Assembly: GCF_003852425.1 (NCBI RefSeq)
Contig: NZ_QAJN01000004.1
Span: 1 to 64,000, forward strand
From: Paucibacter sp. KBW04
Lineage (GTDB): Bacteria > Pseudomonadota > Gammaproteobacteria > Burkholderiales > Burkholderiaceae_C
Reading direction: 5' to 3'
DNA: 64,000 nucleotides
Below, piece after piece: positions 1 through 18,455 of this stretch. The notes beneath the pieces were generated by a model. The model saw only the letters and a program-made list of their open reading frames with translations. It did not search any database and was not told the DNA's origin. How positions within the stretch are numbered: position 1 is the first letter of the stretch; the number at the start of each line of letters is the position of its first letter. A program made the position numbers and the translations under genes.

Positions 1-1
1 G

Positions 2-777
2 GAATTCGGGGGGATTACCCCTGGACGGTATGACTTTGATTGGCTGGCGGACAAAGTGTTGCCGAAGACACGCGCGGAGATCCGTGATATTCGCGCCGAG
101 CGCTCAAAGCGAACTAGCCCGTCGAGCGACCATCAGGGCAACCAGAACAAGGGCAGCATCTACCACTGGTGGGCGCTTGTTTATTGTGACCGGATACGCA
201 TCGCTGAATTCCAGTGGTTTGGTGGCTTCCCTGAGGGGCATCGAGATACGTTTCTGTTCTTGATGGCTGTAGCCCTAAGTTGGTTCACGCGTAGTGAAGC
301 ACTGCGCGATGAAGTCGCGGCCTGCGCGCGGCGGTTCACTCCGTCACTGACGGAGGCTTAGGCTCTAAGCTGCACTTCGGTCGTATTGGGGCGAGCGGTG
401 GACGCAGCGGAGGGACGCCAAGTCTTCCAGGGGACCGAGCGAGATCCTCGCTACTAGTTTCAGCGTGAGACGTTGGATCAGCGGCTCGCGCCGCTGATCT
501 CATCCGACCATCTGCCTGATCTACGCGCGTTGATTCCGGGCGAGTTGAGACTGAACCGAAAGGCTGGATACGACCGCGCGCGCGATCGCGTCAAGGAGGG
601 GCGGTTCGCGAAGCGCCATTGCGGCGCGGATACCAAGGAGCATGCAGTGCAGCTTGTAGTTCGGGGCGACAAATCGGCCAGGTCGCGACCCGCTTCGATA
701 TTAGCTAACGTACGATCCGGAACTGGTTGAAGGCGGCAGGAAAAATCGCCTGCCTTAAAAAGTGGGCGAAGCCCTAG
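2..777 (+). pseudogene. Degraded gene with C-terminal helix-turn-helix; family not recognised
   Basis: One reading frame, open at the left window edge, gives coherent protein sequence (YHWWALVYCDRIRIAEFQW near 160-220) but is cut by in-frame TAG codons at 359-361 and 455-457. Coherent sequence resumes in the same frame after each stop. Near 665-675 it moves to another frame, which reads IGQVATRFDIS, a TAA, then RTIRNWLKAAG, and ends at TAG 775-777. That tail looks like the recognition helices of a transposase or replication-type helix-turn-helix. At least three nonsense codons plus one frameshift indicate a dead gene. The original function is not recognised. Confidence 0.6.
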
Positions 778-849
778 CGACTCCTATCCGACGCCTGCAC
801 CTGGTACGATCAACGCTTGTTTAAAGTAAGCTCAAGCTGGAATTTTTGA

Positions 850-1833
850 ATGCCGACATTTGTGGATCTCTTCTGCGGCGCGGGTTTCGGTGCGCGCGGT
901 GCAGTTCGAGGGGGCGGTATTCCTCTGCTCGGATTGGACGCATGGGACTTGGCAACCAAGACCTACAAAGCGAACTTTCCGCAGGCTGAGATCATCACCA
1001 AGAAAATCGAGGATGTTTCGCCTGCGGAGCTCGGGGCGAAGTACCAACCGGACGTTCTCTTGACGTCTCCCGAGTGCACATCTCATTCGATAGCTCGTGG
1101 TGCCAAGCCAGGCTTGGAGAAAAGCCGTGAAACAGCGATCGGCATTGTTCCCTGGGTTGAGGCGATGGAGCCGCGCTGGGTCATTGTGGAGAACGTCAAC
1201 CGGATGAAGAAGTGGGATCGCCATGACGAACTAGTCCAAACCATTGAGGGTCTTGGCTACGCAGTTAGCGATCTGCTGCTCAACTCGGCTGACTTTGGCT
1301 CAGCTCAGGCGCGCAAACGCATGTTCCTTGTGTGCGATAAACAGGGCACAAAAGTCAGCCGCGAAGAGCTTCTCCGAATGATGAACGCACCGAGAAAAGC
1401 AGCTCGCGACATCGTCAACTGGAAGGCGAACTATCCGGTTTCCCAGCTGAGAAAGCCCGGCCGGGCCAAAGCGACATTGGAAAGAGCTGAACGCGCCATC
1501 ACCGAGCTGGGCCAAGGCGTGCCGTTCTTGATGGTCTACTACGGCTCGGACTATGCCGGCGGCTGGCAGACCTTGGATGCACCACTTCGAACAGTGACCA
1601 CGGTTGACCGATTTGGCTTGGTGACGTGGAAAGAAGGCACCCCCTACATGCGCATGCTTCAGCCGGACGAGCTGCTGCTTGCGATGGGGGGGGCAACTGA
1701 GCACGTCTTGCCTCATGGAACCCGGCGGGAGAAGGTTAAGCTCTGTGGTAACGGTGTGTGCTCGGACGTCATGACAGCGATCTTCCAGTGGATTTCGGCG
1801 AACCAGGGCGCAGCAGAAGGCCGCATGATTTAA
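850..1833 (+). CDS. DNA (cytosine-5-)-methyltransferase
   Basis: The enzyme transfers a methyl group from S-adenosylmethionine to C5 of cytosine in a specific DNA site. The C5-methyltransferase motifs appear in order: DLFCGAG (residues 6-12, SAM binding), TSPEC with catalytic Cys76, ENV (114-116, motif VI), QARKR (153-157, motif VIII) and GNGV (300-303, motif X). The target-recognition region is about 190-265. The usual PPC/PSPC around the catalytic Cys is PEC here. At 327 residues it is a normal, short type II enzyme. It converges on the endonuclease gene, and the two stop codons share the four bases TTAA. With the neighbouring endonuclease it most plausibly forms a restriction-modification pair and protects host DNA. 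Confidence 0.93.
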   Translation: MPTFVDLFCGAGFGARGAVRGGGIPLLGLDAWDLATKTYKANFPQAEIITKKIEDVSPAELGAKYQPDVLLTSPECTSHSIARGAKPGLEKSRETAIGIVPWVEAMEPRWVIVENVNRMKKWDRHDELVQTIEGLGYAVSDLLLNSADFGSAQARKRMFLVCDKQGTKVSREELLRMMNAPRKAARDIVNWKANYPVSQLRKPGRAKATLERAERAITELGQGVPFLMVYYGSDYAGGWQTLDAPLRTVTTVDRFGLVTWKEGTPYMRMLQPDELLLAMGGATEHVLPHGTRREKVKLCGNGVCSDVMTAIFQWISANQGAAEGRMI

Positions 1834-2999
1834 CCGCTCCGAGTGATCCCGTCCAGCCACGCAGCGACCTGAGCTGGCGCCCGAAGTTCAGCCGCATGCA
1901 GCAGCCCAACAATGTCTTGCGCTGCCACCAGGATCACAGGGTGCCCATCGTCCGTAACTTCCTGGTACGCCTGCCGGTCTACATACGAAGTTGTCACCAG
2001 AATCCCGAATTCGCGGTGCTTGATTCGGCTGATCAGACGAGAAACCTCTCTCACTCCTACTGCGTTGTTGGAGCCGTAGCACTTCGCCTCTAGAGCAAAG
2101 TCAACCTCGATCGAAGCTGGACCTCGTCCAATGCGTAGGCATCCAATGCCGTCCCGACCTCCATCGCGCCATGGCCGGGTCAAATCGAGGCGTGAAACAT
2201 CGGGAAGCAGGAGGCGGGTAAGCGCACCTGCACAGGCCTCGAAACCGTATGGATTTGCCTTGTAGCGCTGGCGTATCACTTCGATAAGCGCCTCGTCCGC
2301 AGGGGTTGTGGGTTGCTGCTCCAGCTTTGTCCTGATCAACACAGAACGCGGGGCCATAAGCGGCCGCACGCCACCAGACGCCATCCATGCCTTCCAGGCG
2401 CCGGGTGCGGCTGCTGCCGATGCATCACCGCGCCCCGCGGCATGGATCCAAGAGCGCGCAATCACTGCCTCATCAAGAATCGTGAACACCGCCTTGTAAT
2501 TCTGGAATCGCTGTCCCTCGCTCGTCTTCCACAACGCCACAAGATCCTCAGTCGCAGCCAATGCCGGACTGCCAGGCACCGCAAGTCCTCTGAACCGAAA
2601 GGTCCGGCCCGAAGCCTCCGTAGTAAAAACAAGAATTGGCGGCACCAGATGGCGTTGCCCCAAATGCGACCAGTCGAAGATCTGACGCAACAGCTGGTTC
2701 CCGAACCGGGGTGTGTCATGCAGTAGGCGCCCCGGGTGGCGGTTGTCACCGTAGTAGGTGAATGTCCCTGTGGTCTCATCCAACTGATCAGGCCACTCCG
2801 GCTCAGCCAAGTTTGAGGTCAGAACAAGCAGCGTTGGGCGCTCCTTGCTGCCCCGGTACCGGAAGCCGCCTTGCCTACTCACTCCGGCCAAAGGAACCAA
2901 AGGATCAGCGATACCGCCGCGTTCAGTCTTGTAGCCGGCATAGACGGCGTCAACTATCAAGTCAACTTCGCTCAGTTGCTCGCCGCTGAAGAAGGTCAT
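1830..2999 (-). CDS. Mrr-like restriction endonuclease (PD-(D/E)XK)
   Basis: Probable restriction enzyme of 389 residues. The C-terminal part carries a PD-(D/E)XK nuclease core: GGRDGIG (Asp283 as likely metal ligand), then EVDFALEAK giving the E-x-K pair Glu304/Lys306, followed by a helix and FGILVTTSYV, typical of Mrr-type nucleases. The N-terminal 230 residues (including GTFTYYGDN and FGNQLLRQIF) resemble DNA-recognition regions of other Mrr fusions, but I cannot name the domain. The ATG at 2999 is chosen because it overlaps the vsr stop (ATGA), implying translational coupling; a longer start at 3023 is possible. It is last in the minus-strand operon and faces the methyltransferase gene. 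Confidence 0.8.
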   Translation of the reverse strand: MTFFSGEQLSEVDLIVDAVYAGYKTERGGIADPLVPLAGVSRQGGFRYRGSKERPTLLVLTSNLAEPEWPDQLDETTGTFTYYGDNRHPGRLLHDTPRFGNQLLRQIFDWSHLGQRHLVPPILVFTTEASGRTFRFRGLAVPGSPALAATEDLVALWKTSEGQRFQNYKAVFTILDEAVIARSWIHAAGRGDASAAAAPGAWKAWMASGGVRPLMAPRSVLIRTKLEQQPTTPADEALIEVIRQRYKANPYGFEACAGALTRLLLPDVSRLDLTRPWRDGGRDGIGCLRIGRGPASIEVDFALEAKCYGSNNAVGVREVSRLISRIKHREFGILVTTSYVDRQAYQEVTDDGHPVILVAAQDIVGLLHAAELRAPAQVAAWLDGITRSG

Positions 3000-3405
3000 G
3001 CCATTGAATCCGTTCCGGCGCACACCATGTTCGCAACGCGGCGCGCGCAGCTTTCGAGTGACGCCTCTATCTCATGCTCCCAGAATCTCATCACACGCCA
3101 CCCATTCGCTTCCAGCAATCGAGTGCTTTCCACATTTCGTTCTCGATTGCGCAGAAGTTTCTGTGCCCAGAAATCGCGGTTGTTCTTGGCCATCGTCGAA
3201 TGCTGCGGGCAGAGCCGTGCCAGAAGCAACCGTCCACAAACACAGCCAACCTAGCCCTAACCAAGACAACATCCGGGCGTGTCCGCCTGATACAGAAGTG
3301 TAGCGCCCACATACTCCGGCGAAGGCCAAACTCCGGCCCGGTATCGCGCCCCTTGATCCGCGACATCATCCGGCGACGTTGATCGGAAGTGGCAAGTCGT
3401 TCCAT
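2996..3405 (-). pseudogene. vsr: Very short patch repair endonuclease (vsr), frameshifted
   Basis: Vsr nicks next to T:G mismatches left by deamination of 5-methylcytosine and normally accompanies cytosine methyltransferases. The first frame starts at ATG 3405 and reads SDQRRRMMSRIKGRDTGPE, RPDVVLV (catalytic-Asp region) and FVDGCFWHG (active-site His). The family sequence then continues only in another frame: CPQHSTMAKNNRDFW, then NRERNVESTRLLEANGWRV, then RFWEHE. The shift lies at the doubled AG at 3211-3214, consistent with a 2-base insertion. Joined, the protein would be about 135 residues, a normal Vsr length. Either the gene is inactive or this is a sequencing error. Confidence 0.85.
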
Positions 3406-3412
3406 ATCGCAG

Positions 3413-4834
3413 TCAGAAGAATGCGACCTTCCCAGGGCGCCGCATATGCGTGGAGTAGTGGTGAGCAAGCTCCGACAAAACCTCTTGACGCATCCTAGAA
3501 ACCACAGCCCCCTCTACAGTTCCTCTATATGGCCTCGCCAAGAATATTCGGCAGGAAATCATAAGCCGCCCCGACACACCTCCCAACGTGATCTCCGGCG
3601 TTATATAGATCGAATCATTTGCACCCGACCCGTTTTGATAAAACGGCTTCGGCTCATCAGTCGGGACAAACAAAGACAAGAGAAATCGATGAGACCTCGT
3701 TTTATCCTGCGCGTAGTCACAATCAGCACTCAGCTCCGTAACATAAACATTGCCGGGATTCAACTTACCCTTGCTGATTTCTTTTTCTTGCGGCGTCTTC
3801 TTTGAATAACCATGCGCGAATTCAATACATAGTGCCTCACGCCAATCACCCATCTGATCAGCAAGTCCAATCTCATCAACTAGGCCGCCTTGAGCCTTCT
3901 CCAGAAATCCGTTATCCAAAAGAATAACTGCCCCGCGCTCAGACGCCCTCAAATTCGACTGTTCGGAATGAATGAAGAAGTCATTGAGAAGGCTGGTCAG
4001 CTTTGGCTTTCCTGCTGCTTCCTTGGGCAGAGAAACCTTCTCTTTACTCGTCAGCTCAAGAAAACTATCCAGCGCCCCTTTCGCTGCCTCCTTGTTCAAC
4101 CAATCCTGGGCAATTGGCGTCAATGCCAAGTAAACCCCTTTCGTCGGCGCATTGGGTGCATGCGGACGGCCAAGTGTCTCTTGTGCCATCCTTTTCATGG
4201 TGTCCTTGACAGCAGCCCCATTTGTGAATGGAATGCCGCCGATATCCAGCTTTCGAATCAGCTCATTGCTCGTGGCTGATGCTGCACGCGAGGCGCATGA
4301 CTCCCACAACATGAATGATCGTAGCTGTGGGAAATCAGTGAATATCTTTTCGATATCAGCCTTCACCTTCTCCTTTGCCTCTGAAGAGATATTTTCATCT
4401 TCATCGGAAATATTCTTGACCTCAGTCTTATCGAGAACACGATAGTCGAATGGAATCAGATCCTCTGAATTGGCTGCCTTCAATCTGGAAACCAGAAGCT
4501 GCCAGGCGTTCTCAGCCTCTTCTGGGTACGCCGACCAGAACACAATTAAATATTTCGATGGATTGATCAGCTGGCGGATAAACGCGACCAGCGCCGCAAT
4601 ATATTGCTCAGGCTTGCTTTGCAATGATCCAAGCAGATGCAGATCTGTAAACAGTATTCGGACTCCGTCATGCTTGTGCGCAGGTTGCCGCTCAAGCTTC
4701 CCATTTGCCACCCAGTGGGACATTATTGGCAATCCGCAGACACCTAAGCCATGGGATATCTCCCACAACTCCTCCTTTACGTCGTCGAGAACAATTATTG
4801 GACACGAATGTTCAAACACTTCTTCACTCCCCAC
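3413..4834 (-). CDS. Receiver-like partner of the dual-GHKL kinase, unknown C-terminal domain
   Basis: 473 residues. The N-terminus resembles a two-component receiver: acidic pair Asp17-Asp18 (IIVLDD), candidate phospho-acceptor Asp64 in ILFTDLHL, and a strand ending in Ser (LIVFWSAYPEE). Residues from about 130 to the end match nothing I recognise; the part after 250 is helical and charged and contains VYVTELSADCDYAQDKTRSHRFLL. The GTG start lies inside the kinase gene (11-base overlap), so the two are almost certainly co-translated, and vsr follows 7 bases after its stop. I infer that the kinase-like protein phosphorylates or otherwise signals to this protein, whose C-terminal part may be the effector. 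Confidence 0.65.
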   Translation of the reverse strand: MGSEEVFEHSCPIIVLDDVKEELWEISHGLGVCGLPIMSHWVANGKLERQPAHKHDGVRILFTDLHLLGSLQSKPEQYIAALVAFIRQLINPSKYLIVFWSAYPEEAENAWQLLVSRLKAANSEDLIPFDYRVLDKTEVKNISDEDENISSEAKEKVKADIEKIFTDFPQLRSFMLWESCASRAASATSNELIRKLDIGGIPFTNGAAVKDTMKRMAQETLGRPHAPNAPTKGVYLALTPIAQDWLNKEAAKGALDSFLELTSKEKVSLPKEAAGKPKLTSLLNDFFIHSEQSNLRASERGAVILLDNGFLEKAQGGLVDEIGLADQMGDWREALCIEFAHGYSKKTPQEKEISKGKLNPGNVYVTELSADCDYAQDKTRSHRFLLSLFVPTDEPKPFYQNGSGANDSIYITPEITLGGVSGRLMISCRIFLARPYRGTVEGAVVSRMRQEVLSELAHHYSTHMRRPGKVAFF

Positions 4835-7016
4835 CCTTGAAATTCATTACCACTGCAGCGCCATCAAATGCTTTAGGTATGTCGATGAGATCACGCGCGT
4901 CGCCCATTGAAGGGATTTGCAGACTCCCACCAATATTTTCCATCACCAATTTGCAGTAGTACAGCCCCAAGCCCATCCCGCCTACGCGCTTGGTTATAAA
5001 GGGTTGTATAGCGTCTGCCTCGCTTACCGCGAAGCCGGTTCCATTGTCGGCGATTACTACGGACCCACCATCTTCGCTTGACCACACGCTCTTAATTATC
5101 AAAGCCGGCTTGCGGCCGGAAACTTTGTCGCGCTGGTATCGATATTCAGTCCAGTAAATGGCGTTATCGACGATATTATTCAATGCACTCAAGACGAGGT
5201 GCTGGGGAGCCTTTATAAAAAAATCAGGACTCTCACCGGTAACGATCGGTGCGGAAACCGTGATACCGTGAAACTGGAAGCGAACCTCGTTCAGTTCGAG
5301 GACCTGCTTCACCAATTCACGCATGGACAATTTTCTTGCTTTCCCCTGACGCAAAAGCACTGAAATGGAGTCCAGCATCTTTCTAAGGTCACCCAACCCA
5401 TTCCGCAGTCGCTCCGGCGGAGCCCCTTTCTCCGCCAATGACGTAAGTGTGCGAATTGAGCGGTCAATCTCATGAAAAACCAAGGCCAAACCCATCCCGG
5501 CCATACCTGCGTTAAGCATCACAGACCTAACTTGGTCAACTTCCTTTTCGATGGCCTTCACGAACGGCGTAAGCGTCTTTGACAGTTCCTTATCCTTGTT
5601 GCAAACCTCTTTCAGGCCATCAATCGCGTCTTTCAATTTGATAGTGGAGCCTATTTGGCTGCCATCGTCTCTAAGGGCCGCGTCAATTGCCTTGCGGTCG
5701 GGCTCATGAAGCTTCTCAAAGTGCTGGACGACGCTTAGCGCTAGCAAACGAAATCTGGAGAAGGTTTCGTCTTCGTTGAATCCTTCGCGATTCGTTTTTT
5801 CCTGAAGTGCCGCGCTGTCTGCTAGGTCAAGCTCGATCGCTGCGACAAGTTGACTCGTGCCTATCCGTTCGGCGGGCCTATTGATTCGGCGTGCATTCAG
5901 ACCGAGCCAGTCGTCCTCTGGCTCACCGTAGTTGTAGACGCGAATTCCATCTCGGAAGACGCGAATGCCCGCTTGGTCTTTAAGCCATTGCTTAGTCTGG
6001 CGAATGTCTCCGCCCATTAGGCGCAACAGTTCATCCCGGCGGTAGAAAACATGAAATCTGCCTTTAATAGTGCCAATGCCGGCAAGAGCAGTCTCAGGAT
6101 TGATGAAGATTGAAGCCTCGTCAGCCTTCTCGGCTTTCGCCTTCGCCTCCCGGTACGCCTCGTCCGACCATTCGAGCATTCCCGGCGATGAAGACTTTTC
6201 TTTCCTTTCGTGCAAGTTCTTCAACTTTGGGGGACCGAAACTGTATTTCCAGGTAAATCCCTCATTTGATAGCTCAAATTCGTATACCCAAATCGAACGC
6301 CGCAGCAGTTCCTTCAAATCTGGAACGTCGTCAATGTCCCCTTCCCGTCCAGGTACGGACAGTGAAACATGGAAAGAATCATTAGTGTGAAACGGGCTTT
6401 CTAAGGATACGACCAATCGCTTGAGGTCGCGAAGATCTTTGCGCGCCCATTCCTTACGCGCCAAGCCAGATATCTCAATGATTGTTCCATGCTGCTGGCC
6501 AGGAAAGTCAACAGCTTTGTCCCGCTTCGTCAGCCGAACCTTCAGTCCGCCATCGACGTAGTCCGATGAGCCGATCAACTCGCCCCAATCCAGCTCAACC
6601 ACAATCTCTCGCGCTCCTTTTGTACGGGTGATCATGCGGAATTGCCCACCCAGCTTTTGTACAGCCAAGCGCCCCACGCCCTTCTCGCCCAGCGGCAAGC
6701 GTCCAAACCTAGCACTTCGTACTCGATTCGGCCCTCGCTTGGAGTCGGTGCCTATGTCGAGCCACCGATTCTTGATGGTGTCAGGACTCATCCCGCAGCC
6801 ATCGTCCCGAACGGTGATCTTTTTTGCTCGAAGGTCAACCACAACCTGGACATCTTCGGCATCAGCGTCATACGCATTCTTGACGAGTTCAAAGATGGCC
6901 AGCCTGTCATGCCCCACGAGTTGATCGCCCAGCAACCGGAGGATATGGCTGCGGACGCGGACAGGAATGCTTTCCGTTATGTTGTTTGACACAGCTTGTC
7001 CAAAGTAAGAATCCAA
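4824..7016 (-). CDS. Histidine-kinase-like ATPase with two GHKL domains
   Basis: 730 residues with two separate GHKL ATPase folds. The first, near the N-terminus, is of the MutL/Hsp90/MORC kind: ELVKNAYDADA (Asn47), DDGCGM (71-76) and LGEKGVG (109-115). The second, at the C-terminus, is of the histidine-kinase kind: NNIVDNAIYW (613-622), ADNGTGF (656-662) and GGMGLGLYYC (679-688). Between them VFHEIDRSI provides a histidine (515) placed like an H-box, followed by a dimerisation-like helix. No membrane segment is seen, so it is cytosolic. It heads the operon with the receiver-like gene, vsr and the endonuclease. GHKL ATPases of MutL/MORC type are known companions of restriction-modification loci. 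A signalling or DNA-sensing role is inferred. Confidence 0.85.
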   Translation of the reverse strand: MDSYFGQAVSNNITESIPVRVRSHILRLLGDQLVGHDRLAIFELVKNAYDADAEDVQVVVDLRAKKITVRDDGCGMSPDTIKNRWLDIGTDSKRGPNRVRSARFGRLPLGEKGVGRLAVQKLGGQFRMITRTKGAREIVVELDWGELIGSSDYVDGGLKVRLTKRDKAVDFPGQQHGTIIEISGLARKEWARKDLRDLKRLVVSLESPFHTNDSFHVSLSVPGREGDIDDVPDLKELLRRSIWVYEFELSNEGFTWKYSFGPPKLKNLHERKEKSSSPGMLEWSDEAYREAKAKAEKADEASIFINPETALAGIGTIKGRFHVFYRRDELLRLMGGDIRQTKQWLKDQAGIRVFRDGIRVYNYGEPEDDWLGLNARRINRPAERIGTSQLVAAIELDLADSAALQEKTNREGFNEDETFSRFRLLALSVVQHFEKLHEPDRKAIDAALRDDGSQIGSTIKLKDAIDGLKEVCNKDKELSKTLTPFVKAIEKEVDQVRSVMLNAGMAGMGLALVFHEIDRSIRTLTSLAEKGAPPERLRNGLGDLRKMLDSISVLLRQGKARKLSMRELVKQVLELNEVRFQFHGITVSAPIVTGESPDFFIKAPQHLVLSALNNIVDNAIYWTEYRYQRDKVSGRKPALIIKSVWSSEDGGSVVIADNGTGFAVSEADAIQPFITKRVGGMGLGLYYCKLVMENIGGSLQIPSMGDARDLIDIPKAFDGAAVVMNFKGGE

Positions 7017-8090
7017 TATCGAATCACTATATCGGCGGCCGAACGCCGAGTTCTCGGCTAAAACCCTGTCGATGGGGCTCGGTCAAGAACTCGCGGCACG
7101 AAATCTAGCCAAACTCCAAGACTTGGCCGTTTTAAACCAGATGGTCGACATCAAATGCTCTGAAGGCCCCCATATCTTGGACCCGCGCACCAGTTCGTAG
7201 CCATCTCAAAGCATTGAAGAATTGGCCATGACCGAGTACCAGCGCCGTAGCTTCAGCGGTCGAGAGAAGTGCGGCAGCCGCACTTGCGCTAGCGCGAGGA
7301 TCACCCGGTCCATGAACTGAGCAAACGACTCAGCACCGCCCACTCTTTGTACCAAGTGTCCGCTTTACGCCAATAGGCATCCACTCACCCCCGACGTTCG
7401 CTGACCGTTGTGCCTGCGCAGCGTCCCGGCGCCAAGTACGTGAACTCCTGAATCGGCCAAAGCTCAGCGGGATCGTCCGCGAACTTGGCGATCGCCGGAG
7501 CGCCGAACTGCTTTGCCCGCGCTTGACTGGCTTGGCATTCGGGTGTCGTCCCCACTTCAAATCCCAGCTCATTGTTCTCGGCCTCCCTGTTCACGAATCC
7601 GTGCTCCATTTTGAATGTCTTGGTTGACAGGTGTCGATGACGTTGCTGTGATGAGATCGTCTCCGATATTCGTCAAAGATCTCGGTCTTCGGCTGGAGGC
7701 CGAAGACCGAGGGCCGGGGCGATGCGATCTTAACGTCGCACTGGCGCTGAATGCACCGGCCTCGTCACCCCTCACGGCTAGAGCCGTGTCCCCTGTCAGG
7801 CTAGCGCCCGTTTTCGCGCCCCTGCCGGGCTTCGACGGGCGCGGGGCGATGCCCCCCCGGCGTTCAGCTCGATCAGCAGGGGCCGGTGCGGCAGAAGGCG
7901 CTGCGGCCTGAACGGCCTTGCGCCGATTGCTTGCTCAACCTCATGCTGATCTTCGCCTGCTGATACTTGTACCACCGGAAACCGCCGACTTTGCATCCAT
8001 AGCCGATCGCGCCATGGCCTGGGCGCGAGGAGTGCGGTGGTTGGCGCATCGTATGCTGTGCCATCACACGTGCCAGAGTCTGAGGAAAAA
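7017..8090. other. Gene-poor stretch with coding remnants
   Basis: No intact gene is supported here. On the minus strand, 7609 down to about 7311 reads as protein-like sequence (ELGFEVGTTPECQ, then DTWYKEWAVLSRLL), broken by an in-frame TGA. In another frame, about 7330-7204 reads FAQFMDRVILALAQVRLPHF and RRWYSVMANSSML before a stop. This looks like one or two decayed genes, but I do not recognise the family. A perfect inverted repeat lies at 7681-7711. Confidence 0.3.
7681..7711. repeat. Perfect 13-bp inverted repeat, loop TGGAG
   Basis: CTCGGTCTTCGGC, five bases TGGAG, then GCCGAAGACCGAG form a perfect 13-bp stem. No T-run follows on either strand, so it is not a standard intrinsic terminator. 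It could be a protein-binding palindrome or a transposon-end remnant. Confidence 0.6.
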
Positions 8091-10055
8091 ATGGATAGAG
8101 AGCAGATCGCAGACAGTGCAAGCACTTTTATTCGGACCATCAACTTCGGTCAACAGCAGCTCATTGGTCCCAATGGCGAAAAGCAGGTGGACAACTCCAA
8201 GTTGAAGGACATTGATGTTGCTCTGCCTGCCGAAAATGGCGGGAGTTCGTTGACTGTCATATGTGGCCGAAATAGGACTGGGAAGTCGCATTTCCTCCAC
8301 CACACATATCAGGCTTTGCGCGCCCACAACGCCAATTTGAAAGCGCCGAATTACGACGCTGGCCTCGGTACGGCATCAGCTAACGTGTGGGTCCGACCGG
8401 TCGACGCAACGATGCCGTTTGCTGGCCATGTTCTGCTTGCCAATCTGTCTTCATTCGCCAACAAATTCGCGACGCTCTCTCTCAAGCGCGGGAGAGTCAG
8501 CGGTGATGGCGACGAGCGGCGTATATCGTCCGTGCGCTCATCGTTTGTGCGCGATCAACTTTTGTCTGCGCCTTCTTTCGCACAGGCAGTAGGAAGACCT
8601 ATCGTCGAGGAAGACCTAAAAGACGAGCACTTTGAAAAGCTGTGTCGAAATTTCGATCCAAATAAACTTTACTGCGTGAATACCAGCTCGACCCCGCCCC
8701 TTAAATCCTTTGAGCAGATGTGTGGTGGCAAGCTTTTCTTTCGATTCAATGTTGGCCGGGGCTTCGAACCGGTGCTGTATTACTCACGTAATGAAGCGAC
8801 GACATTTGGATCGGACGGGAGCGGCTGGAGTCGGGGGCAAAAGGTGGCCTTTGTCTTGTGTCTAATTCTTTATTATTTGAAGCCTCGAATATTGCTCATT
8901 GATGAATTGGAGAATCACCTACACCCTGAATTCATCTCAGGCCTATGCGAGTTAATTAGGAAATATGCTGGCCAGAGTATCGTAACCACTCATCATCCGC
9001 ACCTGATTTTCTCGACGCATGCGGACCGGGTATGGTTCTTTGAATTAGAATTAGTTAAGGAACGACCCAGCCTAATTGAAGTCATGCCACAGAAACGCTC
9101 GGACGATCGCCCGCATCCCAAACGAAGAATTAGCGATCTAAGCACTGATTTTCAACGAATTTCTGCCGCATATAAGCTCTTTGACGCTTTAGACAAGCAG
9201 TTGCTAAATATTGGGCTTTCCGCGCGTTCGGAGTTGGCATTTAATCTACTTGAATCCATAAATGGTGGCCTAACTTTGAAGGTCGCCGCTGCTGGGAGCG
9301 GGGATCGGGCAGATGGGCAGACGAACGCCCTTGCCGAGGAACTGCATGAAATCGTTCGAAGGAAGGGGACAAACGAACTACGTGTTCTCGACTACGGAGC
9401 TGGATCGGGTCGTACGTTCTGGGAGCTTGCGAAAGTCAAGAAATTGAACTTGGAGAGTGCGCAGTGGACTTTTTATGAGCCCAATGCCAAACAAGCGGAA
9501 CTTCTCAATACTCAACTAATGGATAGAGTTAATCAGAAGCAAGTCACTTTAACAACTGACATAAAAAGCGCCGAACCTCCATTTGATGTCGTGCTGGCAG
9601 TTAATCTGCTTCACGAATGCACGCCGAGAGATATCTATAAGTTCTTCCAGGACTGCCGCGAACTCGTGGCTCAAGACGGAAAGGTCGTCATTGCAGAGCT
9701 CTATCCTTTGCTTGAGCCTGAGCGTTTTGGTATCGGTTACTCAAGTGCCGACTTGATCGAGGTTGCTTCTGCCTGTGGTTTCTCGGTCTATAGTAATAAC
9801 ATTCCAATGCGCGGAGGAGCCCTGACGGCATATGTCGTTATCGGGCGCCCTGCAAATGCAGTGAGCGAAGAAGCTGCGGTACATACCATCTGTTCAGTCG
9901 TGTGGGCGGGCATCAAGCGACGTCATCTGATCGAATACGGGGAAACAGTCGAGAGTCGGCGTGTGCGTGATGCAGTTAAATTGGCGTCACAACTACATGC
10001 TATTGCCAGCATGGAAGCGTACGCGCAGGGTAGTTGGCGCGACTTCAATGGCTGA
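8091..10055 (+). CDS. ABC-type AAA ATPase fused to SAM-dependent methyltransferase
   Basis: 654 residues counted from ATG 8091, preceded by TGAGGAAAAA as ribosome site; an in-frame start 54 bases upstream lacks one. The first half is an SMC/ABC-like ATPase: Walker A CGRNRTGKS (59-66), signature-like GWSRGQK (about 246-251), Walker B ILLIDE (Asp271/Glu272) and H-loop SIVTTHH (about 296-302). The second half is a class I methyltransferase: motif I VLDYGAGSGR (432-441), then FYEPN and VVLAVNLLHE. No transmembrane segment is seen. It stands alone between remnants and is more AT-rich than the core genome, indicating acquisition. Stand-alone ATPases of this type are common in phage-defence loci; that role is inferred, not shown. 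Confidence 0.8.
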   Translation: MDREQIADSASTFIRTINFGQQQLIGPNGEKQVDNSKLKDIDVALPAENGGSSLTVICGRNRTGKSHFLHHTYQALRAHNANLKAPNYDAGLGTASANVWVRPVDATMPFAGHVLLANLSSFANKFATLSLKRGRVSGDGDERRISSVRSSFVRDQLLSAPSFAQAVGRPIVEEDLKDEHFEKLCRNFDPNKLYCVNTSSTPPLKSFEQMCGGKLFFRFNVGRGFEPVLYYSRNEATTFGSDGSGWSRGQKVAFVLCLILYYLKPRILLIDELENHLHPEFISGLCELIRKYAGQSIVTTHHPHLIFSTHADRVWFFELELVKERPSLIEVMPQKRSDDRPHPKRRISDLSTDFQRISAAYKLFDALDKQLLNIGLSARSELAFNLLESINGGLTLKVAAAGSGDRADGQTNALAEELHEIVRRKGTNELRVLDYGAGSGRTFWELAKVKKLNLESAQWTFYEPNAKQAELLNTQLMDRVNQKQVTLTTDIKSAEPPFDVVLAVNLLHECTPRDIYKFFQDCRELVAQDGKVVIAELYPLLEPERFGIGYSSADLIEVASACGFSVYSNNIPMRGGALTAYVVIGRPANAVSEEAAVHTICSVVWAGIKRRHLIEYGETVESRRVRDAVKLASQLHAIASMEAYAQGSWRDFNG

Positions 10056-10240
10056 AGGAATGCGACGGAAGCACAGAATATGCGTGAAGTCGTGATCAAT
10101 TCAAACTGGACCGTCGCTGGTAACATTGTGTCGCCAGCCGCAGTGGTCCACGGTCAGATGCGGCCACGCCGCATTGTCGATGAAGTAGAGATTGGCGTGA
10201 TGACGCTCGGGTTGAACGAGGACTGTGGAGCCTTGGTGCT
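10056..10240. other. Intergenic, no feature identified
   Basis: About 185 bases between the ATPase-methyltransferase stop and the truncated pseudogene. Short open frames are present, but none resembles a protein family I know. Confidence 0.3.
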
Positions 10241-10605
10241 TCACGGAGCGGATTGGAGTGAGGATTTTTTGAGGCGCTGCGCTTGCTCCTTTGTGGGGCA
10301 CACCCATACCGCAGCATCGAGTTCCTGCGCCTTAAAGGCGCGTTCGATCTTTCCACTCCAACGCGAACCCCGTCCGGACGCACAGCAACGGCGTCAGGAC
10401 GCTTCAAATCCTTGCCTAGAGCGCCCAGCTGGCCGCCATTCGTCCAGTTCGTCCAACTAGCCGCCAAAACCTGAAGCCGGGATTGTTGAATATCAAGGCT
10501 GTGCTGTAGCGTTGCCATAGCAATGCGACTCAGAGTATGCCTTGTTCGGTTGCTCAGTGAGCGGGTCGAACGCCATGGCTTGGCTGTGGGACGTGATGCC
10601 CCACA
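10241..10605 (-). pseudogene. 5'-truncated, frameshifted gene remnant next to the IS
   Basis: Minus-strand sequence from 10518 reads MATLQHSLDIQQSRLQVLAA, then WTNGGQLGALGKDLKRPDAV and RPDGVRVGVE. It then continues only in a second frame as KIERAFKAQELDAAVWVC and PTKEQAQRLKK, to TGA at 10241-10243. The jump near 10349-10352 fits two extra bases. The pattern RPDAV...VGVE-IER...VWVCP resembles the C-terminus of replication-relaxation-like mobile-element proteins, but that assignment is weak. The 5' end is lost at the insertion-sequence boundary at 10606. Confidence 0.5.
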
Positions 10606-10658
10606 TGACCTGCCCCCTACCGCCGTACCAGTCGCATGGCGGAAGTCCGGGTTGAAGG

Positions 10659-11486
10659 TTACTTGATCTCTTTGCTTGTAGCCGGTGGCGGATGGTTCTT
10701 TGTGCGATGGTTGCGGGCGAACTCGGCCGGAGGAATTCGTCCTAAGCTGCTGTGCGGCCGCACCTCGTTGTAGTCTTGGCGCTAGGCAGCAATCGCCGTA
10801 CGTGCTTGCGCTAGCGTCTCGAACCAATGCTCGTTCAAGCATTCGTCGCGGAACTTGCCGTTGAAGCTCTCGATGTAGCCGTTCGGCATGGGCCGCCCGG
10901 GCTGGATCAAGATGTGCTGTACGCCGTGAGACTGCGCCCAAGCGATGAAGGCCCGGCAAGTGAACTCCGACCCGTTATCTGTTCGCACCGCCGCCGGATA
11001 GCCCCTGAACATTGCCGCCCGATCCAACAGCCGCGTCACGTACTGCCCTGAGATGCCGAAGTCCACGGCAATGTCCACGCACTCATGCGTGAAGTCGTCG
11101 GCCACGGTCAGGCTTTTGATGCGCCGGCCATTGGCCAAGCTGTCGGAAACAAAGTCCATGCTCCACACCTCATTGACTCGGATTGGCACGGTGAGCGGTA
11201 CGCGCTCGCTGGCTGCCCGTCTGATCTTCTTGCGCTTGCGCACCGCGAGTTGCGCCTGGCTGTACAACCGATAGACGCGCTTGTGGTTGACGCCCGGAAA
11301 CTCTGGGCGCAGCAGGTCGTGAATGCGGCGATAGCCGAAGCGCCGCCTCACCTGCGCGATCTCGACGATCTTGGCGCTGAGTTGTTGCGTGGCCTCATCG
11401 ATCACGGGCGGGTTGCGATAGCTGTCTATGGAGAGCCCCACCAGGCGGCAAGCGCGGCGTTCGGACAGATGGTGCTGCGCAATCAT
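10659..11486 (-). pseudogene. IS3-family transposase OrfB (integrase core), amber-interrupted
   Basis: DDE integrase-type transposase subunit. VNEVWSMDFVSDSLANGR (first Asp), RTDNGSEFTCRAF (second Asp) and YIESFNGKFRDECLNEHWF (Glu) give the catalytic triad, preceded by a helix-turn-helix region (ERRACRLVGLSIDSYR). The conserved tail reads TAIAA, then TAG at 10782-10784 where tryptophan is expected, then RQDYNEVRPHSSLGR to the native TAA at 10659. The last 40 or so residues are therefore lost. In this family OrfB is normally made as an OrfAB fusion by -1 frameshifting. Confidence 0.85.
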
Positions 11487-11518
11487 CTGGGCCGCCGCTT
11501 CACGCCTAACCTGCGGGG

Positions 11519-11794
11519 CTAGGGCTTTACGCCGAAAACGTCCTTGAGCGCATGGATGTCAAGGTGCGCCTCGGCCAGCAGGCGCTTGAGCTCGGCGTTC
11601 TCGGATTCGAGTTCACGCAGTCTCTTGGCATCCGTGGCCTGCATGCCGCCGTACTTGGCGCGCCACTTGTAGAAGGTGGCGTCACTGAAGCCACCTTGGC
11701 GGCACAGTTCCTTGACCGGCATGCCAGCCTCTGCCTGCTTCAGGAATCCGATGATCTGTTCCTCGGTGAATCTGCTCTTCTTCATGTCCATCAT
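11519..11794 (-). CDS. IS3-family transposase OrfA
   Basis: 91 residues: an N-terminal helix-turn-helix (KKSRFTEEQIIGFLKQAEAG, then ELCRQGGFSDATFYKWRAKYGG) followed by a leucine-zipper-like coiled coil (RLRELESENAELKRLLAEAH). This is the standard DNA-binding subunit for IS ends. It lies just upstream of orfB. The reading frame looks intact. Confidence 0.88.
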   Translation of the reverse strand: MMDMKKSRFTEEQIIGFLKQAEAGMPVKELCRQGGFSDATFYKWRAKYGGMQATDAKRLRELESENAELKRLLAEAHLDIHALKDVFGVKP

Positions 11795-11861
11795 TCTCCT
11801 GGTTGATGGACTTCACTACCTTTGCGCTGGTACGGCAGGAAGGGGGCAGGTCAAATTCAGC

Positions 11862-12965
11862 CTACTTTGGCCTAGCGAGGTCGAGTTGATCGGCATGCTC
11901 GTGAAGCGCCAGCCCATGCAACGCCGCCACCGCCCGCGCGAAGCTCGCGTTGTCCCCCGTCTGAAACAGGCCACTGACCCGCAACTCAGCAAGGCCGCCC
12001 GATTCGACCAATCGAATCGGCACCGCGCTGTAGCGATTCATCTCAGCCACGGCGTCAAGCAACGGAACATCGTCAAACAGCGCCTCGCCACGCCTCCAAG
12101 CCAACACCTGCTCCATGCGCGGCCGGTCGACTTGGGGAACAGCCAAGGCAAGCGAACTGCCCTGCTTGCCTGACTCCCCTGCCCCAGTCCGCGAATCAAG
12201 TCGCATTCGTTCTCCAGGCGCCATCACAAGTGGGCTCCGACGCGCAGCCCCCGCGTCACCTGATGAAGCACCACGGACCACCACCTGCCCTTCCACCAAG
12301 GTCACGGCGAGGGCTGCGGCTGCAGCAGGCGAATCACCTGGCGTCAGGCGCACGACAAAGGCCGTGCCGGTGGCCACGACCTCGGTGCCTGCCGCCTGAA
12401 CAATGAAGGGTCGGCTCACATCCTTGGCGACCTCGAACAAGGCCTCCCCACCCTCCACGGAGACCGTGCGCTGCGCCCGCCCAAGCTCCACGCGAACCCG
12501 CGTGGCGGTGTTCAGCGACATGCGGGTGCCGTCTTCCAGCATCACCACCTGCTGCTCACCCACACCGGTCCGAAAGCTCTCTACATTTCGCCAGGGATGC
12601 AAGATCACCAAGCCCACAAGGAACGAGACAGACAAGGCCAAGGCCCAAGGCACAGGCCTCGAAGCCAGGTGCGCTTGGCGAGCCACTGAAGCACCCTCAC
12701 CAGAAGCTGAGCGGGCATAGCTGCTCAGCGTCACGCCCGCCACTTCCTGCCAGATCTCGGTGCAGCGCTCAAAAGCAAGACGATGCGCCGCAGACCGCTC
12801 CTGCCAAGCCAGGCATTCGCGCTCCATGCGTACGGACCGATCAGGCCCATGCAGGCGAGCCACCCACACCGAGGCTTCAGCAGCAATCTCGGGTGTCACC
12901 GCCGGAGCAGCCACCTCACCAAGCCCCCTGCCCTCTTCTTCTCCTGAACCTCGCACGCCTACCAA
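11862..12965 (-). CDS. FecR-family anti-sigma regulator
   Basis: Membrane anti-sigma/sigma-regulator of about 367 residues. The cytosolic N-terminus has the FecR-type WVARLHGPDRS...AWQERSAAHRLAFERC motif. One membrane span follows (WALALSVSFLVGLVILHPW, about 105-124), then the periplasmic FecR domain (VMLEDGTRMSLNTATRVRV; ALFEVAKDVSRPFIVQ) and a C-terminal STN-like part (LFDDVPLLDAVAEMNRYS). The TTG start at 12965 overlaps the sigma-factor stop; a GTG at 12956 is an alternative. It should hold the ECF sigma factor and receive a signal from a TonB-dependent transducer, but no such receptor follows: the IS begins 9 bases past the stop. Confidence 0.88.
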   Translation of the reverse strand: MVGVRGSGEEEGRGLGEVAAPAVTPEIAAEASVWVARLHGPDRSVRMERECLAWQERSAAHRLAFERCTEIWQEVAGVTLSSYARSASGEGASVARQAHLASRPVPWALALSVSFLVGLVILHPWRNVESFRTGVGEQQVVMLEDGTRMSLNTATRVRVELGRAQRTVSVEGGEALFEVAKDVSRPFIVQAAGTEVVATGTAFVVRLTPGDSPAAAAALAVTLVEGQVVVRGASSGDAGAARRSPLVMAPGERMRLDSRTGAGESGKQGSSLALAVPQVDRPRMEQVLAWRRGEALFDDVPLLDAVAEMNRYSAVPIRLVESGGLAELRVSGLFQTGDNASFARAVAALHGLALHEHADQLDLARPK

Positions 12966-13441
12966 CCTTCCATCCAGCCTGTTACCTGCAGTGTCGCCTT
13001 GGCAATGTGCTTCTCTACCGTGCTGGTGCTCAAGCCATGGCGATCCGCAATCTCCCGATAGGTCAGGCCGTCAATGCGGTTGGCCAGGAAGATGTCGCGC
13101 GTCTTCTCGTTCAAGCGATTCAGGCACACGCTCATCCGCGCCATGCGCTCGCGAGCCAGCACCACAGCTTCAATGCCCGGCGCCGTATCCAAAAGCACCA
13201 CCTCCTCCAGCAGCACCTCCTCGCCATGATTGACCCGCGCTCGGTGTGCATCAATCGACAAGTTCAGCGCCGTGCGCATCAAGAACGCCTCGGGCCGCTC
13301 CACCGGCACCGGCTGATCCAGCTCATAGCGGGCGAGGCGCACCCAGGCTTCTTGCACCAGATCATCAGCGTCATGGGTTGAGCGGCCTCGGCGCATCAAA
13401 GCGGCTCTGACGCGCGAGAAAGCTGCTTCCAAATTAATCAT
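12959..13441 (-). CDS. ECF-type RNA polymerase sigma factor (FecI-like)
   Basis: 160 residues from ATG 13441, which is preceded by AAGGAG at good spacing. Region 2 is visible as HDADDLVQEAWVRL and RPEAFLMRTALNLSIDAHR. Region 4 is LNEKTRDIFLANRIDGLTYR, then EIADRHGLSTSTVEKHIAKA, a clear helix-turn-helix. The gene overlaps fecR and forms a FecI/FecR-type signalling pair that normally drives a ferric-siderophore receptor gene. The pair is more GC-rich than its island neighbours and may be residual core DNA or a separate acquisition. Confidence 0.92.
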   Translation of the reverse strand: MINLEAAFSRVRAALMRRGRSTHDADDLVQEAWVRLARYELDQPVPVERPEAFLMRTALNLSIDAHRARVNHGEEVLLEEVVLLDTAPGIEAVVLARERMARMSVCLNRLNEKTRDIFLANRIDGLTYREIADRHGLSTSTVEKHIAKATLQVTGWMEGW

Positions 13442-13455
13442 TTGGAATCTCCTTT

Positions 13456-14088
13456 TCACCAGCAATTGATCGGCGCTGGTACCCTGCAGCGGCGAGGTTC
13501 GACGTTGCATCGCCGGGACCTGATGCGACTAGCGCCGGAAAGACAGAGCGCCATTGACCCCAACTGGTTGTCCACTCGCTGAAGAACTTGACCAACAAAG
13601 AACAGCCATGACGGAGACACCAAAGAGCCACGCCTCTGGCCAACTATTCGAACCACCTCACCCTGAATTGCTTCCATTTCTTGAGCGGAAGTAGTGACAA
13701 GTCGCCGCGCAAACATTGAATACCCAATGTTCGAGCCGTCCTTTCGAACCAGTTCCAGCCTCGTTTCGACGACATGAGGGAAAGCCAACCGCGCGGCGCC
13801 AGCATCCGCATTAGCCACGAATCGAATCCGCTCAACACCGCGATCAGCTAGATCAACGAAGACTGCCCGCCAGTCGGGTGCCCCCATCGGCGAACACCTC
13901 CAAGCGCCCAGCAATTCCCGCTGACCATCGCTCAACGTGCCAAGAGCCCAAGTCAGAGGGCTACGGCTTTCCTCAACAAGAGCAGGCGCTTGAATCGGTA
14001 GTGCAGCAAAGTGGACCAACGCGTATCTGCAACAAAGCGGACGACTCAGCCACTCAGCATTTGCTCCACACAAAGTGTTTTCCATCAC
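13456..14088 (-). pseudogene. Possible transposase remnant (mutator-like), low confidence
   Basis: A minus-strand frame reads LGTLSDGQRELLGAWRC, then PDWRAVFVDLADRGVERIRFV and AARLAFPHVVETR. This recalls the catalytic region of mutator (IS256-type) transposases, where a statement of use such as xxLGVW is followed by a tract like FWxxVLxDLxxRGV. The beginning and end do not match anything. No catalytic triad can be completed and no terminal repeats were found, so I treat it as a fragment. Confidence 0.35.
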
Positions 14089-14145
14089 TCCCCCTTGCTG
14101 AAGTGAGAAGGCGCGCGTTGCTTGCGCTACCGCAACCTGTCAATG

Positions 14146-14194
14146 CTACGAAATTCGTAGTATCTGGATTGTACAAAAGCTACGACTCTCGTAG
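14146..14194 (+). promoter_or_regulatory. Two CTACGA-N3-TCGTAG operators before the XRE gene
   Basis: Two perfect palindromes, CTACGA-AAT-TCGTAG (14146-14160) and CTACGA-CTC-TCGTAG (14180-14194), are spaced 34 bases centre to centre. The second ends 4 bases before the ATG of the XRE gene. Identical half-sites with different 3-base centres are what a dimeric helix-turn-helix repressor would bind. Autoregulation by the adjacent gene is the simplest reading. Confidence 0.75.
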
Positions 14195-14198
14195 CAAG

Positions 14199-14522
14199 AT
14201 GAAAGACGCGGAAAACAGTACAGCGGGGGTCTGGCAAAGGCGGCTGAAAGAGGCTCGCATTGCTCTCGGACTCAGCCAAAAGCAGCTAGGAATTGAGGCG
14301 GGCCTTGACGAGTTCGTGGCTTCGACCCGTATAAATCGCTACGAGCAGGGCGTTCACGCACCCGACTTCCAAATAGCGATGCGATTGGCTCAAGTGCTTG
14401 GCGTACCAGTCGCGTTCCTCTACTGCGACAGTGACGAAATGGCGCAGATGATCTTGACGTTCCATAAGGCGCCAGAGGCGGCGCGTCGACAGGCTATAGC
14501 TACCTTACAAAAAGCAACGTGA
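14199..14522 (+). CDS. XRE-family transcriptional regulator
   Basis: 107 residues. The helix-turn-helix is WQRRLKEARIALGLSQKQLG followed by EAGLDEFVASTRINRYEQG and VHAPDFQIAMRLAQVLGVPV, a complete Cro/CI-type domain with a short C-terminal tail. The ATG at 14199 is chosen because the domain begins right after it and the upstream in-frame sequence is not protein-like. The last operator half-site lies 4 bases upstream, leaving no room for a strong ribosome site, so translation may be weak. It probably represses itself through the two palindromes; other targets are unknown. Confidence 0.85.
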   Translation: MKDAENSTAGVWQRRLKEARIALGLSQKQLGIEAGLDEFVASTRINRYEQGVHAPDFQIAMRLAQVLGVPVAFLYCDSDEMAQMILTFHKAPEAARRQAIATLQKAT

Positions 14523-15033
14523 AGCCCCCGTCCGAGCACAGCCTGAGAGTCTTTCCTTGTGGTTATCTGACTGAATTGTCTCTTCGCAAAGCACGGGATA
14601 CCCGTTGAGCAGAGCAAAGAACCAATTCGAACGCAGTACAAGGCTAACAGCCAGGTCCAAGCGTAGTTCAACAACTACCGCGACGGCCAACACCGGCCAT
14701 CTAGCATTCCGTTGGACAACCGCCTGCAGCACCCCCTGACACGGCCGATCAGCTAAGTCGGGTTGGCCGAGAAACCCAGGCTGAGACCCACGACAGTTTT
14801 CACAAACTTCGAAACGACGCCGAAGTGCAGCAAGCGTCGACAGAGAACCTACTGGCACTGAAGCGCTCTGTGCCCTTCACAGAAACTCGCGCCCGAACGT
14901 TGCCAAGCGGCCAATTGCCCTAACGCTGCCACACCCTGCTCTCGTTGCACTGCCTGACTACAGTGTTTTGACGCCTGATCTCAGACGCCGTCTGGGGCTG
15001 ACGGTAGAAGCGAATGGTTAGCTAGGCAGCACG
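14523..15033. other. No recognisable gene
   Basis: About 510 bases. A minus-strand open frame (14505-14858) gives a 117-residue sequence (AALRRRFEVCENCRGSQPG; VVELRLDLAVSLVLRSNWFF) that is protein-like in parts but matches nothing I know. It could be a remnant or a chance frame. Confidence 0.3.
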
Positions 15034-15582
15034 TCAACCACCTGCGGCAAGCAGTAGCGCCAAAAGCGCAATATCTCGTCTTTCCTTCGCAGCAGTTCCA
15101 GCAGCTAACGCGCGGTCTTCCAAGCTAAATGTTGCATTTTCAGAGTCCTGTTTCATCGCATTCGCTGATGCCCTCTTTATTGCGAGTAAGTCCGAGACGG
15201 CCACTACTTGTAACAGGTATCCATCCAAAGTCGCTTGTTGCGAACGGGAAAGGCAATCATCAAACTCTGGGTCTCCTGCGACCGAAGTCAGGATGTCAAC
15301 TTCGGGGAGCACTGGATCGCCAACACAGAACTTGAAGTTCGGCTGCTGCAACCGTTCAAGCGGCGGCCTGTTTGGGAACTCTTGAAGAAAGCTAGTCATA
15401 GCCTCCGTGTTGGTGCGGTCGCGAGCAATCCATAGGTCTAGATCGCGCGTTGGACGGTCAATGCCCATCAATCGCATGGCTTGCCCGCCCACTAGAAGGT
15501 AGCGGACTCCAAGCGCCAAAAACCGGCGTATGACCTCCCTTTGGAGTCGAGTCATTTCAGTCCGCTCTTGCTTCCGATGCAT
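15034..15582 (-). CDS. Nucleotidyltransferase-fold protein
   Basis: About 182 residues. The N-terminal part has the nucleotidyltransferase signature: YLLVGGQAMRLMG followed by RPTRDLDLWIA, where the GG and the D-x-D pair form the metal and NTP site. A later acidic residue may be supplied by LPEVDILTS. Proteins of this shape occur as stand-alone enzymes and as toxins or antitoxins (MNT, AbiEii types) on mobile elements. No clear partner such as a HEPN protein lies beside it. The start may be 15582 or ATG 15555. It lies 11 bases after the zinc-ribbon gene on the same strand, so the two are probably co-transcribed. Confidence 0.65.
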   Translation of the reverse strand: MHRKQERTEMTRLQREVIRRFLALGVRYLLVGGQAMRLMGIDRPTRDLDLWIARDRTNTEAMTSFLQEFPNRPPLERLQQPNFKFCVGDPVLPEVDILTSVAGDPEFDDCLSRSQQATLDGYLLQVVAVSDLLAIKRASANAMKQDSENATFSLEDRALAAGTAAKERRDIALLALLLAAGG

Positions 15583-15593
15583 TTTTCGATGGC

Positions 15594-17482: not shown

Positions 17483-17498
17483 TGGCTCCCTCCTCGCA

Positions 17499-18182: not shown

Positions 18183-18299
18183 TTTCAGCATCCGAAACCG
18201 ACGAAGTAGACGGCAGCTCAGATCACCTGAAACACGAGCCAATGAACTCGCTCGCACCAAGCGATCAAGCAAGGCTCAAACAAGCAATATCAGCTCAAT

Positions 18300-18345: not shown

Positions 18346-18455
18346 CTGCCGGCAAAACGGCAAGTCACGTGGGCAAAAAGGGCACACGAGGTCACCAGCG
18401 GCCAAAGGACTCGAAAAGTTTTTTCGACCGCGAAAAGAGCGGTGTACCCACCTCA

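Follow-up and report, generated by a model that had tools for sequence, protein, structure and literature searches.

A kinase-like and receiver-like gene pair in a restriction locus of Paucibacter sp. KBW04 is a predicted divergent branch of the HEF_HK/Response_reg_2 system

Can a restriction locus carry a phosphorelay of its own? Histidine-to-aspartate signalling is among the commonest sensing chemistries of bacteria, and searches of the open-licence literature yielded no paper in which it is tested as a component dedicated to a restriction locus; what came closest there was a paper on Helicobacter pylori, in which a type I methyltransferase gene is regulated by a general two-component system (PMC10810217). 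The question is raised by a five-gene cassette at positions 850..7016 of a window of 64,000 nucleotides from Paucibacter sp. KBW04 (assembly GCF_003852425.1, contig NZ_QAJN01000004.1, positions 1-64,000 of the forward strand; GTDB lineage Bacteria; Pseudomonadota; Gammaproteobacteria; Burkholderiales; Burkholderiaceae_C). An earlier interpretation made from the letters alone, the sequence-only reading, had seen there a kinase-like protein with two GHKL domains (P0001) and a receiver-like partner (P0002), both set in a Dcm/Vsr/Mrr-type restriction locus. Our analysis indicates that the anatomy of the locus is sound, that this reading is partly right, and that the outline of the system has already been published.

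The publication in question is that of Bellieny-Rabelo, Pretorius and Moleleki, who reported in 2021 a predicted two-component-like pair formed by HEF_HK (PF19191) and Response_reg_2 (PF19192) (PMC8011034). By profile comparison, the window pair is a divergent, unlisted branch of that predicted system. The HEF_HK model matched none of 50 window-branch kinases at E<=0.1, while it matched all 10 published-type kinases scanned as a control; likewise, Response_reg_2 matched none of 72 window-branch receivers at the same threshold. When profiles were aligned with each other, the kinases of the two types matched over almost their whole length (hhalign, E 4.5e-52). For the receivers, the comparison made after realignment gave E 1.8e-6 over the full length, where nulls were 0.27-0.91; the receiver part by itself reached 8.6e-6 and a C-terminal stretch of 31 columns 7.6e-5, and the nulls of all these comparisons spanned 0.054-0.94. 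In these comparisons, four of the published-type receivers had their starts cut by hand at locus coordinates, and seven of the 10 published-type kinases were C-terminal parts only. Predicted common descent with the published pair is thus well supported for the kinase and moderately supported for the receiver.

The likeness extends to architecture and surroundings. As described in the text on the published pair (PMC8011034), the kinase has the order HATPase_c_3, H-box, HATPase_c, the adjoining gene has receiver hallmarks, and the two genes lie beside dcm and often vsr. Adjacent kinase and receiver genes near a C5 methyltransferase gene are also what we find in the window branch, the window included. 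The branches differ, however, in size: window-branch kinases mostly have about 720 amino acids and their receivers about 450, whereas published-type kinases have about 1000 (three full-length sequences) and published-type receivers roughly 540-620. Our searches of the open-licence literature brought up neither an experiment that tests such a pair nor an account of the window branch. What is new here is the separate branch, its near-complete pairing among the closest relatives, a quantified tie to methyltransferase genes and evidence for portability of the pair across defence systems.

How far do the two proteins fit the parts assigned to them? In P0001, Pfam recognises HATPase_c_3 at residues 40-152 (E 2e-19) and HATPase_c with its best stretch at 609-703 (E 1.7e-19). 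The order is an N-terminal GHKL+S5-like ATPase module, a helical stretch with the H-box, and a C-terminal catalytic and ATP-binding domain. In an alignment of 50 sequences, the predicted phospho-accepting His515 is kept without exception and Glu516 in 48. Invariance extends to the N-terminal GHKL residues E43, N47, D71, G73 and G75, to K407 within an EKTNREGF motif, and to N614, N618, D657, G659, G661, G682 and G684 of the kinase core, with D617 and G680 kept in 49 of 50. Read from its motif, K407 may be the catalytic lysine of an S5-type domain; intact GHKL motifs together with an S5-type domain bearing such a lysine are the traits of MORC/paraMORC-type proteins. An AlphaFold model of P0001, built with 49 hand-chosen homologues, reached a predicted local distance difference test (pLDDT) score of 82.9 and a predicted template modelling (pTM) score of 0.61; at such a pTM it is uncertain how the two halves lie relative to each other. 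Foldseek matched one end of the model with the ATPase modules of SMCHD1 (the top match), Hsp90/TRAP1 and GyrB, and the other end with histidine kinases. Fold and motifs together point to a MORC/MutL-class ATPase module joined to a histidine-kinase core, as the sequence-only reading had proposed, and the H-box-like histidine that it had placed between the two GHKL domains is among the invariant residues.

MORC-like ATPases beside restriction genes are not new. The paraMORC/MORC proteins described by Iyer in 2008 (PMC2292703) are also GHKL+S5-type ATPases encoded beside cytosine methyltransferases and Vsr-like nucleases. Compared with their description in that paper, P0001 has two additions, a histidine-kinase core at its C-terminus and a partner of the receiver type; the main text of the paper does not use the word "receiver".

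P0002 consists of an N-terminal receiver domain and a C-terminal domain. No Pfam family matched it, no match was found in PADLOC 2.0, and the ordinary Response_reg model matched weakly in only two of the 72 aligned receivers (best E 0.009). Its fold was predicted with 71 of 79 receiver homologues (400-496 amino acids; L062 left out; here and below, L numbers denote loci of relatives), and the model is of good quality (pLDDT 89.0, pTM 0.85). The first 140 residues show alternating strands and helices as in a receiver, with no helix between strands 2 and 3, and 34 of the top 50 Foldseek matches in the PDB are named response regulators or receivers (for example NtrX, 4d6y, probability 1.00). Structure prediction thus finds a receiver fold in the 473-residue protein, a point on which the sequence-only reading had made its account depend. 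The residues on which that reading had relied, Asp17/18 and Asp64, are invariant or nearly so (Table 1); Lys136 is kept in 71 of 72 sequences and Ser/Thr101 in 65, so that fold, acidic pair, phospho-accepting aspartate, Thr/Ser and Lys of a two-component receiver are all present. Searched as a sequence profile, the receivers matched response regulators in five of seven PDB hits, but weakly (best E 0.07). In its C-terminal half the model shows a domain of mixed alpha/beta type, in which G301, C372 and D373 are invariant and R466 and G468 near-invariant across the 72 receivers.

To what extent do the two genes belong together? A scan with the kinase alignment returned at least 491 relatives, and the best 80 were examined. 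In 79 of the 80 loci a P0002 homologue is the next gene downstream on the same strand; in the remaining locus, L089, the kinase runs off the contig. L089 (no receiver, contig end) was left out of the neighbour counts, which therefore concern 79 pairs, and 55 loci with at least 5 kb on both sides are termed full-flank. The gap between kinase and receiver genes lies between -60 and +20 bases in 75 of the 79 pairs; the other four gaps are +85 and, when each open reading frame (ORF) is counted from its first start codon, -259, -133 and -100. Among the 79 receivers, four have fewer than 400 amino acids: those of L027 and L043 lie at contig ends, and those of L023 and L068 have short frames. L023:10001-12951, from Thiobacillus sp. 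65-1402, encodes a kinase 82% identical to P0001, and the receiver frame found there has 257 amino acids. Searches that started from the receiver gave a kinase-like gene upstream in all nine loci read, made up of six of seven plasmid hits (H5 was left out) and the genome loci L016-L018. Titles of relatives, among the matches listed, include proteobacteria, Bacteroidota, actinobacteria, acidobacteria, spirochaetes, Chlorobi, a planctomycete and a Campylobacter.

Sequence distances give a measure of co-inheritance. Kinase and receiver distances correlate with r 0.92 over 85 loci, a value reached in none of 2000 permutations, whereas kinase and methyltransferase distances correlate with r 0.27. 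The comparison kept 85 of 90 loci, dropping those with receivers below 380 amino acids or without a kinase ORF above 600, and considered methyltransferases longer than 250 amino acids within 7 kb, of which 75 were kept. The difference between the two correlations suggests that the pair is an accessory able to move among cytosine-methylation loci.

The neighbourhood of the pair has one constant element. A dcm gene was found in 69 of the 79 pairs, within 200 bases in 46 of them, and within 5 kb in 50 of the 55 full-flank loci; the corresponding full-flank counts are 34 for vsr and five for an AspBHI-type gene. As an internal control, 68 dcm hits fell in 361 kb at 0-2.5 kb from the pair, compared with six in 842 kb at 2.5-10 kb. 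A scan of neighbours by family took in 125 genes adjoining the core, of which the 25 most frequent families were considered. Contexts in which the pair appears include Mza-like, DISARM-like, EcoRII-C, MvaI/BcnI and AspBHI. Mza resembles the present locus in having a GHKL protein in a cytosine methyltransferase context, and in L024, L037 and L098 the pair is preceded on its own strand by Mza-like genes, in L037 directly. Six loci with the dual-GHKL kinase (L003, L004, L007, L008, L044 and L100) contain a second, MutL-like GHKL protein in frames of 500-665 amino acids, checked with Pfam for L044 and L100 only; two GHKL machines may thus serve one methyltransferase. In L033, L035 and L038 a small gene recurs near the pair (ORFs of 147-164 amino acids); by eye it is possibly nuclease-like, and no family of its own was seen for these ORFs.

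In the window itself, rereading of the DNA confirmed the coordinates and strands that had been given for the cassette (Table 1). The P0001 and P0002 genes overlap by 11 bases, a 7-base gap separates P0002 from the Vsr ATG (3405), an ATGA junction joins vsr to the P0003 ATG, and the P0004 gene is convergent with the other four. The designation of the locus as Dcm/Vsr/Mrr-type stands in that the genes are in place, and fails in that the vsr frame is broken and the "Mrr-type" gene belongs to the AspBHI family. The N-terminal part of Vsr lies in the ORF 3091-3468 (Pfam Vsr, E 2.3e-16) and the C-terminal part in another frame, 2996-3211; the pieces match adjoining parts of Vsr proteins of relatives, 5-68 and 70-130 in the best matches. 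The other four cassette genes are open. The split could mark vsr as a genuine pseudogene, or it could come from an error in sequencing. Among relatives, L088 is an example of a locus whose vsr is unbroken, and it has an AspBHI-type gene as well.

Table 1. Genes of the cassette and codons of predicted functional residues, in window coordinates.
Feature	Position	Strand	Basis
P0001, dual-GHKL kinase-like protein, 730 amino acids	4824-7016	-	Pfam, alignment, AlphaFold, Foldseek
P0002, receiver-like protein, 473 amino acids	3413-4834	-	alignment, AlphaFold, Foldseek
vsr gene, frame broken	2996-3405	-	Pfam Vsr, matches to Vsr proteins of relatives
P0003, AspBHI-family nuclease	ATG 2999, stop 1830; ORF reaches upstream to 3023	-	Pfam, PADLOC, PDB 4oc8
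P0004, C5-cytosine DNA methyltransferase, 327 amino acids	850-1833	+	Pfam DNA_methylase, PADLOC
His515 codon of P0001, predicted phospho-accepting His, H-box "FHE"	5472..5474	-	kinase alignment
Asp64 codon of P0002, predicted phospho-accepting Asp	4643..4645	-	kept in 72/72 aligned receivers
Asp17 and Asp18 codons of P0002, predicted metal-binding acidic pair	4781..4786	-	D17 in 72/72, D18 in 66/72

The most striking local feature is that a predicted 5-methylcytosine (5mC)-dependent nuclease shares the locus with a 5mC-writing enzyme. P0003 matches RE_AspBHI_N (E 1.3e-69) and Mrr_cat (E 1.8e-14) in Pfam and mREase_II in PADLOC (E 3.4e-178), and aligns almost end to end with AspBHI (PDB 4oc8, E 2.2e-232). 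All 10 pocket and DNA-contact residues checked, at positions taken from PMC4499157, are kept, and the protein has both an SRA-like domain with the 5mC pocket and an Mrr_cat nuclease domain with the E-A-K motif. P0003 is therefore predicted to be a 5mC-dependent restriction endonuclease of the AspBHI (MspJI) family and no general Mrr protein; AspBHI itself cuts YS(mC)NS (PMC4499157). Compared with known members of the family, what sets P0003 apart is its company, a C5 methyltransferase together with the kinase/receiver pair. AspBHI-type genes occur in five of 79 relatives, and in four of these five the combination of a nuclease of this type with a 5mC-writing enzyme was seen. At L118:9348-12530, an AspBHI/LpnPI-like gene (45% identical to P0003), a 266-amino-acid ORF and a methyltransferase that is dcm-type by eye stand together, and the kinase/receiver pair was not found within the 20 kb read; the AspBHI-like/dcm combination does not, then, need the pair everywhere.

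The methyltransferase P0004 matches Pfam DNA_methylase (E 7.3e-31), and its best PADLOC match is DrmMII (E 1.8e-69), though no match to the DISARM proteins DrmA or DrmB was found in positions 1-20000 of the window. The catalytic motif of C5 methyltransferases usually reads Pro-Pro-Cys; P0004 has Pro-Glu-Cys, and so does its homologue L002/L016. On the other side, the cassette is adjoined at 8037-10055 by a gene on the opposite strand for P0006 (672 amino acids), an unusual fusion to find beside a restriction locus: an AAA_21/AbiEii-type ATPase region (265-324) is followed by an S-adenosylmethionine-dependent methyltransferase domain (about 450-550). Farther on, at 10782-11794, two adjoining ORFs judged by eye resemble a two-part insertion-sequence transposase, which suggests a mobile neighbourhood for the cassette.

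What might the pair do? Sequence or prediction gives two ATPase modules, a conserved histidine and aspartate, a receiver fold, near-obligate pairing and a tie to dcm. The explanation towards which we lean is that P0001 and P0002 form a soluble two-component-like pair, a portable accessory of restriction or defence loci based on cytosine methylation. That the pair is co-inherited and tied to C5 methyltransferase loci seems to us very likely; that phosphotransfer takes place is probable; that the receiver gates a restriction effector post-translationally is put forward tentatively, with somewhat more doubt than confidence. In such a scheme, the N-terminal GHKL+S5 module of P0001 would be a dimeric, ATP-driven clamp or sensor; what it reads would be a state of the DNA, or else a partner complex, with a link to the methyltransferase. 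Its closing would lead the C-terminal kinase core to phosphorylate His515, the phosphate would pass to Asp64 of P0002, and the C-terminal domain of P0002 would swap partners and gate the attached system, here the AspBHI-type nuclease.

Several observations weigh against this explanation. On the side of the receiver, the first profile comparison with the published type gave only E 2e-4 and a probability of 46%; Foldseek E-values against the PDB are weak, none being <=0.001 (best 1.5e-3); among 72 homologues, Ala takes the place of Ser/Thr in seven and Asp18 is missing in six; and the frames of two receivers, neither of them at a contig end, are short (257 amino acids in L023, 295 in L068). The C-terminal domain of P0002, which the sequence-only reading had already called unrecognised, has no convincing Pfam family or recognised fold. 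On the side of the neighbourhood, no dcm was found within 5 kb in the full-flank loci L035, L065 (where it lies at 6.7 kb), L077, L083 and L085, and L018, with its pair at L018:7845-11254, shows no dcm, vsr or AspBHI gene in 20 kb. The co-occurrence with dcm, vsr and endonuclease genes that had been expected of a system thus holds for the near-obligate pair and for dcm, but of the restriction and defence partners looked for (seven kinds and AspBHI), one was recognised in only 19 of 80 loci. Moreover, these are the closest 80 of at least 491 relatives, and more distant ones may behave differently.

Most receivers act in transcriptional control, and a plain alternative is that the phosphorylated receiver controls expression of methyltransferase and nuclease, so that methylation precedes cutting. 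The pair lies in a dcm operon or adjoins dcm, the authors of PMC8011034 speculate on signalling that controls restriction-modification systems, and the Helicobacter pylori case (PMC10810217) is one in which a two-component system regulates a type I methyltransferase gene. We nevertheless regard this alternative as unlikely. No DNA-binding domain stood out in P0002 or the 72 homologues (two weak TetR_C_21 matches, best E 0.037), which makes simple transcriptional control less likely, and the C-terminal half of P0002 is modelled as a mixed alpha/beta domain with an invariant Cys-Asp. A different proposal, to which we also give a small chance, is that the pair itself is an ATP-driven restriction effector, with P0001 as a DNA clamp of the MutL/MORC/Shedu GHKL type, P0002 as a structural or catalytic subunit, and the receiver site as a switch of another sort. 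The resemblance of the N-terminal module to SMCHD1, Hsp90 and GyrB would suit a clamp; residues 40-246 of P0001 match the BbrUII/HgiDII restriction family of NCBIfam (1.6e-25, 90 bits, below the cut-off of 550), the GHKL-nuclease fusion VcSduA is a proven defence protein (PMC12137116), and most loci lack a recognised restriction partner. A pure clamp, however, would not need His515, the kinase core motifs, Asp64 and Lys136, all kept almost without exception, and no nuclease motif was recognised in P0002.

The constancy of dcm (50 of 55 full-flank loci) and the frequency of vsr (34 of 55), beside recognised nucleases that vary or were not found, admit another explanation, namely that the pair maintains a methylated genome together with dcm and vsr, in that it senses sites that are hemimethylated, deaminated or mismatched and calls for repair instead of restriction; MutL is described as working with Vsr and mismatch repair (PMC2292703). 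This seems improbable: in the window an intact pair stands beside a broken vsr, no vsr lies within 5 kb in 21 of the 55 full-flank loci, and relatives are placed in Mza-like and DISARM-like loci. Lastly, the genes might only hitchhike in defence islands without joint work with the methyltransferase, as the low kinase-methyltransferase correlation (r 0.27) and the isolated pair of L018 could suggest. The fall-off of dcm with distance is steeper than we would expect if island clustering alone were at work, although the comparison is internal only, and we consider hitchhiking highly improbable.

Returning to the two-component-like accessory, a bolder version of it can be formulated, to which we assign a low likelihood: the pair would serve 5mC-based defence in general as a phosphorelay checkpoint, in which a clamp-like sensor reads the state of the genome or of incoming DNA and the receiver licenses whichever effector is plugged in, be it Mza, DISARM or a type II nuclease. 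In the present locus, what the receiver licenses would be a 5mC-dependent nuclease that has a 5mC writer for a neighbour. Such a combination would be safe on one of two conditions only, that the specificities of the two enzymes do not clash or that the nuclease is restrained by the phosphorelay until infection, and restraint of the latter kind might amount to a suicide switch against the cell's own methylated DNA.

Annotation that relies on the Pfam models of the pair and on PADLOC 2.0 will miss the window branch, since the former do not catch it and the latter has nothing that matches P0002. In 2008, MORC-like ATPases in restriction loci were proposed to loop DNA (PMC2292703). If the explanation favoured here is true, that proposal becomes testable, and DNA-level immunity would have a phosphorylation switch, a single portable gene pair common to several unrelated defence systems.

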